DNA of 64,000 nucleotides, from NCBI RefSeq assembly GCF_003073375.1, contig NZ_CP029002.1, positions 2,342,001-2,406,000 on the forward strand, written 5' to 3'. Origin of the DNA: Lysinibacillus sp. 2017 (GTDB taxonomy: Bacteria > Bacillota > Bacilli > Bacillales_A > Planococcaceae). A program made the translations under genes and the position numbers. Below the pieces are notes generated by a model, which saw only the letters and a program-made list of their open reading frames with translations, was not told the origin of the DNA and did not search any database. Positions 41,031-44,708 of the stretch are shown piece by piece. The number at the start of each line of letters is the position of its first letter. Positions within the stretch are counted from its first letter, which is position 1.

Positions 41031-42491
41031 TTAATAAGGAATAATTTCTATCGTTTTTGTCGCAATCTTTGAAAGAAATGTTTGATCATGTTCAACAAAT
41101 AAAAGGGTAGGTTTATAAGCAAGAACCATCGTTTCAATTTGCTTGTGGTTAAACACGTCCAAATAATTTAACGGCTCGTCCCATATAAACATTTCTGCGG
41201 ATGTTCCTAATGATTTGGCAAATTCGACCTTCTTCTGTTGCCCATTACTCATATATTCAATTGGAACATTAAACACATCACGTTCAAACCCTAGAATACG
41301 GAGATTATTTAAAAATAGCGTGTAATCAAGTTGATTTTCAACAGCAAAATCTTTTAATAACCCCGTATTGTCATTGTGAATTTGGCGAATATTACTTTTC
41401 GTCAATCCATGTGGAAGTATAACCTCACCGCTAATTGACCCAGAAAAACTTTGATCGATCAAGTATTTTAATAGCGAAGATTTACCGCTTCCATTCGGTC
41501 CAACAAGTGCGACTTGTTCACCTTGATAGAGTTCAAATGTAATCGGTTGAAAGAGTGGCTTTTCACCGTAACTTAATGAAAAATCTTTCACTCTAAGTAC
41601 AGGATTACGATGACTGAATAGACAATTGATTGTTAATGAGCTGACAGATTCAATATTGTGAAGTAGCTTTGTCTTTTCTTCAATTTTGAAGTTCATACGT
41701 TTTTCAATTACTTTCGATCGTTTCATCATCCGCTTAGCCTGTGCATTTCCAAAGGGGTCATTGCCTGATAGTTTTTCCTTTTTGATGGCCCAATCAGACT
41801 TTTCCCTTGCTGTTTGCTTAAGCCGATCAATTTCTGATTTCAATAGTTTATTTTGTTCTAATTCATACTGATCCTGATGTTCCTTTTGTTGCTCGTAAGT
41901 AGAAAAATCACCTTTAAAAATCGTTAATTGGCTTTTTTCAATAGCCAAAATGTGATCGACAACTTCATCGACAAAAGTGCGGTCATGGCTTACTACAATG
42001 AAGCCCTTTTTCTTTTTCAAATAGTTAATGACAATAGTTCTTGCCTGAATATCTAAATGATTCGTTGGCTCATCAAGAAGGGGGTAGCGAGATTCTTCAC
42101 AAAAAAGTGCTGCTAGCAACACTTTGGTTTGCTCACCTCCAGATAATTGTTCAAATGGTTGCCATAAAATCGCTTTATCTAATTGCAGGTATTGGCATTC
42201 TCTCTCTAGTTTCCATAATTCAACTGGCATTACTTCATCAATCGCATAGTATGTTAAGCTTTCCTTATTTACAATCGTTTGCGGGAAGTAAACAAACTCC
42301 ACATCACAAAGTATTTCACCTTCATAAGGGTACTTTTTCATCAGTAAGTCTAATAGCGTAGTTTTTCCACGTCCATTTCTTCCAATTAAACCAAGACGCC
42401 ATTTTGTATCTATATTTAAATCTACATTTTGAAATATCGGTTCATCCAGCGCATCAAATCCGAAATTCATATTTTTAATCTCTATCGGCAT
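41031..42491 (-). CDS. ABC-F ribosome-protection protein, Lsa-type
   Basis: 486 residues, no membrane segments, two ATPase domains joined by a charged coiled linker (about 205-285), the ABC-F plan. Domain 1: LIGRNGRGKTTLLDLL, LSGGEQTKVLLAAL, LLDEPTNHLD. Domain 2: LVGPNGSGKSSLLKYL, MSNGQQKKVEFAKS, WDEPLNYLD. The opening PIEIKNMNFGF and DTKWRLGLIGRNGRGK resemble Lsa/Eat-type proteins that protect ribosomes from lincosamides, pleuromutilins and streptogramin A. Resistance itself is inferred. The upstream leader indicates drug-induced attenuation. Confidence 0.85.
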   Translation of the reverse strand: MPIEIKNMNFGFDALDEPIFQNVDLNIDTKWRLGLIGRNGRGKTTLLDLLMKKYPYEGEILCDVEFVYFPQTIVNKESLTYYAIDEVMPVELWKLERECQYLQLDKAILWQPFEQLSGGEQTKVLLAALFCEESRYPLLDEPTNHLDIQARTIVINYLKKKKGFIVVSHDRTFVDEVVDHILAIEKSQLTIFKGDFSTYEQQKEHQDQYELEQNKLLKSEIDRLKQTAREKSDWAIKKEKLSGNDPFGNAQAKRMMKRSKVIEKRMNFKIEEKTKLLHNIESVSSLTINCLFSHRNPVLRVKDFSLSYGEKPLFQPITFELYQGEQVALVGPNGSGKSSLLKYLIDQSFSGSISGEVILPHGLTKSNIRQIHNDNTGLLKDFAVENQLDYTLFLNNLRILGFERDVFNVPIEYMSNGQQKKVEFAKSLGTSAEMFIWDEPLNYLDVFNHKQIETMVLAYKPTLLFVEHDQTFLSKIATKTIEIIPY

Positions 42492-42601
42492 ACTATTGCC
42501 ACCTCCAACTTTATTGATTACTTAGGGAATTGGAGATGATTTTTGTTTCATATTGCATACAATCATTCCAATCATTTGGTTTGAATGCATACGCATAGAC
42601 A

Positions 42602-42633
42602 AATAAAAAACCTCCTGAAAAAGCTTCAGAAGG
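42602..42633 (-). terminator. Leader terminator of the ABC-F gene
   Basis: CCTTCTGAA pairs with TTCAGGAGG (one G-T pair) around GCTTT, followed by TTTTTT; it lies 110 bases before the coding start. Confidence 0.85.
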
Positions 42634-42753
42634 ATTAGAATTCATTATCAAATAAGCCAAGAAAACGGCATGATAAAGGTAATAAGTGGGCAGACTAATC
42701 CTATTTTATGTGAAAATGCATATACATTTTACGTGTAAAATAGAATTATTTAA

Positions 42754-42765
42754 TCATTGTCCCAT
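42754..42765 (-). CDS. Three-residue leader peptide Met-Gly-Gln
   Basis: ATG GGA CAA TGA. GAAGGG ends 6 bases before this ATG; two further in-frame ATGs (42768, 42771) would give MMMGQ but lie too close to the ribosome site. Tiny leader peptides are a feature of ABC-F attenuators in Firmicutes. Confidence 0.55.
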   Translation of the reverse strand: MGQ

Positions 42766-42792
42766 CATCATCCCTTCAAATATATTACAATT

Positions 42793-42820
42793 ATTATATC
42801 ATTAGAAATTGAATTTTCAA
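42793..42820 (-). promoter_or_regulatory. Promoter of the ABC-F leader
   Basis: TTGAAA (42815-42820), a 16-base spacer and a perfect TATAAT (42793-42798), placing the transcript start near 42785. Confidence 0.7.
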
Positions 42821-42845
42821 TTATTTATTTTTTGAAAGTAAGAGG

Positions 42846-43637
42846 TTATTCAACTCTATTAAAAGCTTGATACGCTTCCTTTAAAAATTCGGATACCGCT
42901 TTTGTATTTGTTAAGGGCAGGTAATGCTGTCCATTCTTTATTTTCGTTACTGTTGCCTGCTCATATCTTTTACTAAATAATCGTGATTTTTCAACTGATA
43001 GTTCATCCGCTGAAGCTTCAGCAATGAGTAAATGTATCGGCAGTGTTGTTTTCTTTAAACAATAATCCACGGTCGAAATCTCTTTTGAAAGGGCATTATA
43101 CGCAACCTCATTGCAATGGTGCGCATAAAATTCACCTTGCTCGATATAGTTATTGAGGGTATATGATTCAAAATTAGCATAAGCCTCTTCTTCTAAATGT
43201 GGCATTGCATATGTGAGTTCTCGGACTGCCACCCTTATATCTTCAAAATCTTCAATATTTGAAGGCAATTCTACATCTTCATGGTCTTCATTTCGTTCAT
43301 CAAGAAAATAATGTCCTCCATCTAATAATGTAAGTGACTGTACAGATTGCGGATAAACGGCCGCAAATGCTTGAATAACCCAAGCGCCTAAGGAATTTCC
43401 CACAAAATGCGCCTGATTAATATGTAGTAATTCCATCGTTTGCTTCATAAATTCGCAAAAACTAGGAATGGAATAATCGTTTAACTGCTGCTTATTATTT
43501 CCTGGTAAATCAAATACAAGCCAACGATAGTCATTCATTTCATTTGCTAAAGGCTGAAACATTTCTTTTCTTTCACCTAGTGCTGGGATGGCAATAATAA
43601 CTTTGTCGCTTTCTTTATCCCCATAAAATTTATACAT
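42846..43637 (-). CDS. Alpha/beta hydrolase
   Basis: 263 residues. The nucleophile elbow is HFVGNSLGAWVIQ (GNSLG), the likely acid lies in LLIAEASADELS and the catalytic His in IKNGQHYLPL. The oxyanion region is AIPALGERKEMF. It is cytoplasmic and the substrate is unknown. It is last gene of a coupled three-gene operon; its ATG lies inside the end of the 61-residue gene. Confidence 0.85.
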   Translation of the reverse strand: MYKFYGDKESDKVIIAIPALGERKEMFQPLANEMNDYRWLVFDLPGNNKQQLNDYSIPSFCEFMKQTMELLHINQAHFVGNSLGAWVIQAFAAVYPQSVQSLTLLDGGHYFLDERNEDHEDVELPSNIEDFEDIRVAVRELTYAMPHLEEEAYANFESYTLNNYIEQGEFYAHHCNEVAYNALSKEISTVDYCLKKTTLPIHLLIAEASADELSVEKSRLFSKRYEQATVTKIKNGQHYLPLTNTKAVSEFLKEAYQAFNRVE

Positions 43638-43815
43638 CTATAAGCCACTCGCTTTCTAAAAATTTTTTAAGGATAGCTTCAGATGACAGATTTCCATTGT
43701 AAGTAACATGCCAACTTAAATATATTCCGACTGCAACACATTCATTCAGTAAAATTAAGAAGTTTTCTCCTCTCAAATACGGGTTGGTCAAATAATCCCA
43801 AAGTTGTTTTTTCAC
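43630..43815 (-). CDS. 61-residue protein coupled between GNAT and hydrolase genes
   Basis: The frame overlaps the GNAT stop by 4 bases (GTGA) and the hydrolase start by 8 bases, a strong sign that it is translated. It is rich in aromatic residues and Leu (QLWDYLTNPYLRGENFLILL) with a hydrophobic stretch about 18-36 that could be one membrane helix. The start is GTG with TGGAAA upstream. Not recognised. Confidence 0.55.
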   Translation of the reverse strand: MKKQLWDYLTNPYLRGENFLILLNECVAVGIYLSWHVTYNGNLSSEAILKKFLESEWLIDV

Positions 43816-44708
43816 TTTCCATTAGTGTGATGGTCTTTGTTCCATTCAAAGCTCCATAAAATGGCTTTCTTTTGAAATCCCGCTTTCAAATAAACATAAT
43901 TAGCACGATCGTTTGTATGATTTACTGTTAATGTAATTCCTTTTACCTCTTCATATGAAAAGATATCTGTTAATACTTCTCTTAATAATGTCGTGCCTAA
44001 CCCTAACCCTCTATATTCGGATGCAATCGCAATATACTCCAAATGGGCAGTCTGTTCACCCAAGTCTATTTCATAATAGACATAGCCCTGTGTAACGCCA
44101 TCTGATGACTTTAGTAACTTAAGTTTATTGGTATTGCTACGTTTGATTTTTTGTAAAATGGTAGCTGCATTATAATAGGTTTTTGGAAAGGCTTCTGTAT
44201 GGATATGTGTAAACTCTGCAAAATCTTGCTCTTCATATGATTTGCTTAAAATAGTAGTTACAGGTTCAAAAGTATCTCGGATAATTTCTAAATACAAATG
44301 TTCACCCGTCTTTTGCGTTTGAAGTTCGTTCATGAATTGCTGTTGAAGAATGTTATGTTCATTGATGAAAAATTGGAATTGCGTAACCTCTGGAAATTGC
44401 TCCATTAGAAATCCCCATAATTGATGCTGTCGCTCTAAATCTTCATTTATCGAAAAAGGGCCCCAAACTTCAGCGCAATCTTCATCGATATCTAAGCCAA
44501 TGATTGCTTGTAGTGTCTGCTCTAAGAAGCATGCAACTACTGTCGTTTCTGAATTATGTATGAAATCTTCTTTAAGCGCTTTTAGAATGTCGTCTTTTTC
44601 TGTGCCACAATAGCCAATATGATGTGTTTCTTTCGAATTTAAATTGGCAATAAACTGAGCCGCTTCATCTAGCTCTGAAATTGATAATTTGTTAAATGAA
44701 TAGTTCAT
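43812..44708 (-). CDS. GNAT N-acetyltransferase, two-domain
   Basis: 298 residues. The C-terminal half has the acetyl-CoA binding pattern LEYIAIASEYRGLGLGTTLL (R/Q-x-x-G-x-G) and the final motif NHTNDRANYVYLKAGFQKKA. The N-terminal half (1-150) looks like a degenerate second GNAT fold. GGAGGTTAAAG precedes the ATG. It heads the operon with the 61-residue gene and the hydrolase. The substrate is unknown. Confidence 0.85.
   Translation of the reverse strand: MNYSFNKLSISELDEAAQFIANLNSKETHHIGYCGTEKDDILKALKEDFIHNSETTVVACFLEQTLQAIIGLDIDEDCAEVWGPFSINEDLERQHQLWGFLMEQFPEVTQFQFFINEHNILQQQFMNELQTQKTGEHLYLEIIRDTFEPVTTILSKSYEEQDFAEFTHIHTEAFPKTYYNAATILQKIKRSNTNKLKLLKSSDGVTQGYVYYEIDLGEQTAHLEYIAIASEYRGLGLGTTLLREVLTDIFSYEEVKGITLTVNHTNDRANYVYLKAGFQKKAILWSFEWNKDHHTNGK

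Follow-up and report, generated by a model that had tools for sequence, protein, structure and literature searches.

A probable vmlR-type (ncr1575) attenuator before an Lsa-type ABC-F gene, and related leaders before other putative resistance genes

The vmlR leader and other described systems

The closest described system is the leader of the vmlR gene of Bacillus subtilis, which carries the short upstream open reading frame uORF(MIN). In PMC9226507 a toeprint is reported at the MIN start codon, and mutation of the start codon or of its Shine-Dalgarno (SD) sequence abolishes induction. The leader is described there as forming an anti-antiterminator (SL-1), a terminator (SL-3) and an SD-burying hairpin (SL-4), while SL-2 together with TTNTTT makes up a NusG-dependent pause signature. 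The drugs that induce vmlR are ones that arrest ribosomes at initiation. Three leaders of the subtilis group match the Rfam family ncr1575, that of Bacillus spizizenii (L097) with 197.7 bits, L061 with 185.7 bits and L108 with 178.0 bits, and their layout is that of the window leader. Both the SD (AGAAGGG) and the uORF (ATGATTAAC) of L097 are those quoted for vmlR in PMC9226507; ncr1575 is therefore the vmlR leader type.

In Listeria, rli53 (RF01481), before lmo0919 (VgaL), is likewise a case of lincomycin-responsive attenuation of an ABC-F gene (PMC11550727). At the rli53 gathering threshold the window studied here (the whole 64,000-nucleotide stretch of DNA analysed) is not matched, and ncr1575 is matched instead. 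As in the window, short uORFs precede the ABC-F genes of LsaA, CplR and VmlR2, where PLSA drugs are thought to stall ribosomes; the consensus peptides MAGN (LsaA), MR[I/M] (CplR) and MK[L/Q] (VmlR2), given in PMC10201436, differ from the MIK of the window. No ncr1575 match at E 0.01 was found for the leaders of lsa(E), the Enterococcus raffinosus lsa-like gene and the Monoglobus lsa-like gene. The lsa(E) leader L200 and the leader L202 are of another kind, having a short ORF that reads M-Y-N-F-S-C or M-R-N-F-S-C, the TTCTTGC of which recurs downstream as GCAAGAA.

The leader of the Lsa-type gene

On the minus strand of the window, a leader of ~190 nt lies between an alpha/beta-hydrolase-like gene (42846-43637) and an ABC-F gene (41031-42491, minus strand) for a ribosomal protection protein of 486 aa, identified as Lsa-type from NCBIfam models and the LsaA structure. 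The protein scores 450.3 bits against NF000355 (ribosomal protection-like ABC-F), above the cut-off of 380. Its top-scoring NCBIfam family is NF000167 (Lsa), at 645 bits with a curated cut-off of 750, and because this best match falls below the cut-off the gene is named Lsa-type rather than Lsa. The closest relative with a solved structure is LsaA (7nhk). An Lsa-type orthologue is present in 12 of the 16 genomes of the genus.

From 42789 to 42603 on the minus strand the leader aligns with the entire model of Rfam RF02452, ncr1575 (positions 1-212 of 212), at 81.3 bits against a gathering score of 60 and an E value of 7.6e-11 for the whole window. Its homology, conservation, pairings and folding are direct observations, and the probability that it is a vmlR-type antibiotic-responsive attenuator is put at roughly 0.88. 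A first-pass annotation had proposed ribosome-mediated attenuation, with a three-codon uORF, before the Lsa-type gene, and the homology and anatomy of the leader point to such a mechanism. The attenuator is real and the coordinates first given for it were mostly right. The architecture, which had been thought possibly new, is a known one, that of vmlR (PMC9226507; Rfam ncr1575), and the uORF had been mis-picked.

A sigma-70-type promoter-like site (TTGAAA-16 nt-TATAAT, with TG before the -10; 42820-42793) matches the consensus at 11 of 12 positions, and the ncr1575 match begins at 42789, approximately where transcription from this site would be expected to start. In all, 3 promoter-like sites were found and 2.7 are expected in shuffled sequence, so the promoter, which had been called a good one, is plausible, not proven. 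The uORF SD, GAAGGG (42777-42772), is 14 nt before ATG 42757, a spacing that is the same when measured on L097. This ATG opens the conserved uORF ATG-ATT-AAA-TAA (MIK, ATGATTAAATAA; 42757-42746), the positional homologue of vmlR uORF(MIN). It sits in a bulge of the anti-antiterminator SL-1 (42764-42687), placed by folding and pairing counts, in which folding gives a basal stem (42764-42753 with 42695-42687), an upper stem (42748-42736 with 42708-42696) and an apical hairpin (42732-42710).

The antiterminator (AT) strand AGGATTAG (42702-42695) is also part of the SL-1 3' arm. Its exact complement, CTAATCCT (42638-42631), shares CCT with the 5' arm of an intrinsic terminator (42633-42605) that has a stem at 42633-42611 and a T-run at 42610-42605. 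These eight-base strands and the competition of the terminator for the same bases had been described in the first-pass annotation and are borne out. A small hairpin, GCCG...TGGC (42669-42656), resembles in its fold the SL-2 pause hairpin of vmlR, and TTATTT (42655-42650), which is invariant in the 12 genus orthologues, matches the vmlR signature TTNTTT. Beyond the terminator, ATGCGTATGCATT (42596-42584) is complementary, counting G-U pairs, to 13 nt of the SL-1 apical part (42728-42716), and in an SL-4-like hairpin (42537-42501) the pairing of 42537-42528 with 42510-42501 buries the ABC-F SD GGAGG (42506-42502). SL-1, the pause motif and the SD-burying hairpin had been missed earlier. One terminator-like hairpin was found where 0.2 are expected in shuffles. 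The leader folds better than 200 out of 200 shuffles (z -3.9); SL-1 has a z of -3.6, with 1 of 200 shuffles equally good.

Common to vmlR and the window are thus the SD (AGAAGGG and GAAGGG) and its spacing, a three-codon uORF in the SL-1 bulge, SL-1 itself as anti-antiterminator, the antiterminator pair, the terminator, a TTNTTT motif and an SD-burying hairpin. The window differs in its uORF (MIK, not MIN), in its gene, the product of which is Lsa-type and 31% identical to the vmlR-type protein of L097, and in an SD-burying hairpin whose sequence is its own and which does not include the SL-1 complement. The short SL-1 basal stem of the window and a score that is low compared with the best members in the scan of 261 family genomes (161.5 bits) could also indicate a decayed, unresponsive leader, with a gene that is silent or constitutive. 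The uORF, the AT strand, the SL-1 upper stem, the pause motif and the terminator are intact, as they are in the 12 orthologues, and decay is very unlikely; an intact vmlR-type attenuator is the preferred reading.

Conservation was followed in leaders from several scans. In the family, 195 of the 261 genomes have an ncr1575 match at E 0.001 and 183 exceed the gathering score; in the class the corresponding figures are 57 and 39 of 398 genomes. A uORF-region pattern scan of named genomes gave 50 stretches, 47 of which were leader-like by eye, including those of the Bacillus subtilis group; L078, L079 and L105 were left out, there being no leader in them. The set of 176 leaders is made up of 30 and a further 60 chosen among the listed matches in the family, 27 class loci, the 12 genus orthologues and the 47 pattern hits. 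Seven were dropped from the uORF count: five repeats (L190, L191, L192, L194 and L197), L183 at a contig edge, and L185, which was taken for a repeat but is none and has an intact uORF (MIN). The remaining 169 still hold repeats and represent 150 distinct cores.

The terminator pattern is missing in 4 of the 169 (L080, L115, L143 and L196), leaving 165 aligned leaders, 154 of them distinct. In these 154 the 8 bp AT helix is paired in 99.4% of cells and in 15–63% when slid, although admission to the alignment required a terminator and a matching motif, which favours AT pairing somewhat. The helix is also formed in all 12 genus orthologues (100% of cells, with one both-side change). This set alone says little, since 39 of 500 shuffles reach the observed pair counts. 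For SL-1 in the same 12, shuffles reach the observed counts in 41 of 500; here the basal stem is paired in 71.3% of cells, and the upper stem is uninformative because it never varies. Across 40 diverse cores SL-1 is paired in 88.0% of cells compared with at most 54.5% when slid, and has 16 both-side changes against 6.0 in shuffles, none of 500 being as high. A slide of -1 gives 18 both-side changes with far fewer cells paired, which is a warning against over-reading this covariation. The SL-1 structure used for the pair counts was named by hand, and RNAalifold, applied to the alignment of the 40 cores, predicted no base pairs.

By analogy with vmlR, the window leader is likely to have a second layer of control, at translation. 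Each of the 12 orthologues carries, 3' of the terminator, a stretch of 11–14 nt complementary to the SL-1 apical segment, a length reached by 0–8 of 200 shuffles. This complement lies within the hairpin burying the ABC-F SD in 10 of the 12 (L033-L042, folds read by eye), while in the window it stands apart from that hairpin. Burial of the SD and the SL-1 complement together resemble the translational attenuation proposed for vmlR.

Choice of uORF and the proposed switch

The first-pass annotation had taken ATG-GGA-CAA-TGA (MGQ; 42765-42754) as the sensing uORF. This ORF is present; its ATG is preceded by two others in frame (MMMGQ), and its stop overlaps the MIK start by ATGA, so that MGQ might sense alone or coupled to MIK through stop and restart. 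ATG 42765 is nearer the SD (6 nt) than ATG 42757 (14 nt), and an ATG is present 5–16 nt before the uORF start in 141 of the 150 distinct leaders, with the stop of the upstream ORF overlapping the uORF start in 109. Most of this overlap follows from ATGA, however, since where ATGA does not give it free it is kept in only 1 of 24 leaders of the VmlR class (those in which the second uORF codon begins with a base other than A) and in 0 of 2 of the Lsa2 class. The window's own clade keeps the overlap in 10 out of 12, including 3 of the 4 cases without the free overlap, which speaks for MGQ.

The frame itself is not conserved. Within the genus the MGQ-position ORF is lost in L032 and starts with TTG in L042, the plasmid lsa(B) leaders L198 and L199 have no ATG at this position, and 9 of the 150 distinct leaders have no ATG in the upstream interval. 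The bases around the MGQ ATG of the window make up the 5' side of the basal SL-1 stem. In vmlR it is the second ORF, the one with the matching SD spacing, that gives the toeprint (PMC9226507). A different ABC-F gene, from Streptomyces, likewise has two overlapping uORFs, one of which was found not to be translated (PMC12421871).

At the MIK position, a three-codon ORF ending in TAA is present in 12 out of 12 genus orthologues, encoding MDK (4), MIK (3), MKL (2), MSK, MKF and MNL (1 each). A two- or three-codon ORF is found there in all 169 leaders, and so in all 150 distinct cores; three of the 169 start with GTG, L159 has two codons, and eight read ATGATGAACTAA (MMN or MN). The uORF-finding script searches for such an ORF and a control was therefore run in which the bases behind the SD were shuffled: a uORF was found in 157 of 157 real leaders against a mean of 12.9 and a maximum of 23 in the shuffles, the 12 genus leaders having been located by another anchor. 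The conserved uORF is MIK, not MGQ. When the leaders of relatives are compared, as had been suggested, the three-codon uORF and the pairing are both kept in 12 of the 12 orthologues, their loss from all close relatives thus not having occurred, while the ORF at the MGQ position is not conserved.

Folding separates the two ORFs in the window. When the RNA is truncated where the AT strand ends, P(AT) is 0.00 without a ribosome, 0.04 with one at the MGQ start and 0.97 with one at the MIK start. Eleven of the 12 genus leaders were testable; all of them have a P(AT) of 0.95–0.97 when the ribosome stands at the MIK position, and 10 stay below 0.5 when its edge is set as for the MGQ start of the window. 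Release of the AT strand by a ribosome on the upstream ATG is also predicted for several leaders of the VmlR, Lsa2 and Lnu classes, so that folding distinguishes MGQ from MIK only in the window's clade; in this comparison 31 of the 165 leaders, those without exact 8-mers, were left out. With a frame that is not kept in most classes and an AT strand that is not freed (P(AT) 0.04), MGQ was rejected as the sensing uORF, and a sensing role for it, alone or with MIK, is improbable.

Equilibrium folding with the complete terminator did not show a switch in the window's clade, P(AT) being at most 0.16 in the window (ribosome edges 24–61) and 0.00 in L037. The switch must therefore be kinetic, acting before the terminator is made, and a pause at the conserved TTATTT motif would naturally help in this.

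On the vmlR model, a ribosome in the absence of drug would translate MIK fast and depart, SL-1 would form and sequester AGGATTAG, and the terminator at 42633-42605 would form and stop transcription. A lincosamide, pleuromutilin or streptogramin A would hold the ribosome at the MIK start codon, where it would mask the 5' side of the upper SL-1 stem; AGGATTAG could then pair with CTAATCCT, blocking the terminator so that the ABC-F gene would be transcribed. Drug dependence, arrest at initiation, pausing and the translational layer are carried over from vmlR in this scheme and would apply by analogy. The predicted inducers are drugs that arrest ribosomes at initiation (lincosamides, pleuromutilins and streptogramin A), largely whatever the peptide. 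The earlier suggestion that the uORF predicts the inducing drugs does not agree with vmlR, where the variants MDN, MDK and MRK are still inducible, MRK less efficiently (PMC9226507).

Leaders of this kind before other genes

The genes behind the 176 leaders, repeats included, are VmlR-like in 108 cases, of a second Lsa clade in 33, of the window's Lsa type in 13 and lnu(G)-like in 11; none was assigned for 11, several of which are at the end of a stretch. The ncr1575 scores are 110.3 bits for the plasmid lsa(B) leaders and 136.1 for lnu(G). Matches to the lnu(G) unit occur in 119 plasmid records, and in 103 of these 80% or more of the query lies at a single place. All 20 listed matches begin at query base 1 and therefore include the leader; the listed matches are from Exiguobacterium, Providencia, Proteus, Moellerella and Morganella. 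Mobile lnu(G) genes with a complete attenuator (L203, L020 and L180) include one on a conjugative plasmid of the Gram-negative Providencia (L203).

Two further models were built. R1 is made from the 40 cores and, as RNAalifold gave no pairs, is sequence-only. R2 is made from 20 leaders of MFS, Vat, Vgb-like, Lmr(B)-like and SDR genes, with no ABC-F leader and with a structure named by hand. Matches were found in 78 (R1) and 72 (R2) of the 398 genomes. R2 recovers the window (E 1.5e-6), the Bacillus spizizenii leader L097, lnu(G) and lsa(B), but not the lsa(E) and Enterococcus raffinosus leaders included in the same test; this indicates that the leader types are related.

A set of 118 loci was drawn from 91 of 100 R1 rows and 27 of 29 further R2 places; of the nine R1 rows left out, five run antiparallel to another match and four have E values around 1e-3 or 1e-4. 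The genes behind them were assigned by BLAST to references drawn from the same loci and named by NCBIfam. There are 63 ABC-F genes, 30 MFS genes like TIGR00900, 5 Vat (one a 94-residue piece), 4 Vgb-like, 2 Lmr(B)-like, 1 Lnu, 1 Tet-like MFS, 1 hydrolase, 1 SDR and 10 unclassified (L218, L271, L288, L291, L298, L300, L339, L340, L341 and L349). The Lnu(G), Vat and ABC-F references score over their curated cut-offs, while for Vgb, Lmr(B), Tet and TIGR00900 the name is that of the best-scoring family, below its cut-off, and many of the MFS loci stem from one genus. Resistance by these MFS pumps is presumed. The R1 match at L298, before a gene that is Erm-like by eye, is probably due to chance, as there is a T-box on the other strand.

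The Rfam type of ncr1575 is 'Gene; sRNA' and a short terminated transcript is predicted, as would suit a leader of ~185 nt acting mainly in trans as a small RNA. The next gene, however, is ABC-F, Lnu, Vat, Vgb-like, Lmr(B)-like or MFS in 106 of the 118 loci, and vmlR is regulated in cis (PMC9226507). Action in trans is extremely unlikely, and attenuation of the following gene is preferred.

Type II leaders (L246-L295 and L321-L350; stem TAATCCTAT/ATAGGATTAG) precede MFS, Vat, Vgb-like and Lmr(B)-like genes. They are below the Rfam gathering score and a few have weak rli53 scores (24–36 bits in L280, L287 and L080; gathering score 70), so that ncr1575 and rli53 may be one superfamily. In 12 of 25 type II leaders an exact complement of 7–8 nt to the SL-1 3' arm is present 58–82 nt downstream, at a terminator-like hairpin; any hit is found in 13 and none in 12, and shuffles give 1.6 on average and at most 6. 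This is the same logic in another register. In L284 and L345 the stop or the start of the uORF is lost and the gene that follows gives only a short match (94 and 121 residues), as though the two were decaying together.

The attenuators with a tripeptide uORF, vmlR's being the known one, probably form a single family that serves bacteria of this class as a general initiation-arrest sensor before many unrelated resistance genes: ABC-F genes, among them those of VmlR and Lsa, Vat acetyltransferases, Vgb-like lyases, Lnu(G), and MFS pumps, Lmr(B)-like ones included. On this reading the sensor is mobile with lsa(B) and lnu(G) and usable to find new resistance genes. This use of one leader family by many mechanisms is a more interesting result than the window leader itself. 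In the open-licence literature, as far as it was available, no report was found of an ncr1575-type leader on lnu, vat or vgb genes, and none of one leader family serving many resistance mechanisms. An RNA signature recognisable from sequence would mark about five mechanisms (target protection, acetylation, lysis, nucleotidylation and efflux) and would offer a way to pick out resistance genes not yet known. Joint control of protection, drug modification and efflux by a single sensor thereby becomes testable.

A GNAT-type acetyltransferase gene of a genus relative (L152/L205, genome G161) is headed by such an attenuator (95.7 bits) and is a candidate new resistance gene. Its homologue in the window (43812-44708, upstream of the alpha/beta-hydrolase gene) has no such attenuator, and among seven GNAT homologues of the genus, its own included, the motif GGATTAG occurs within 420 nt upstream only in L152/L205. 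Elsewhere in the window, a tandem glycine riboswitch (two RF00504 matches) is present at 58455-58256 on the minus strand.
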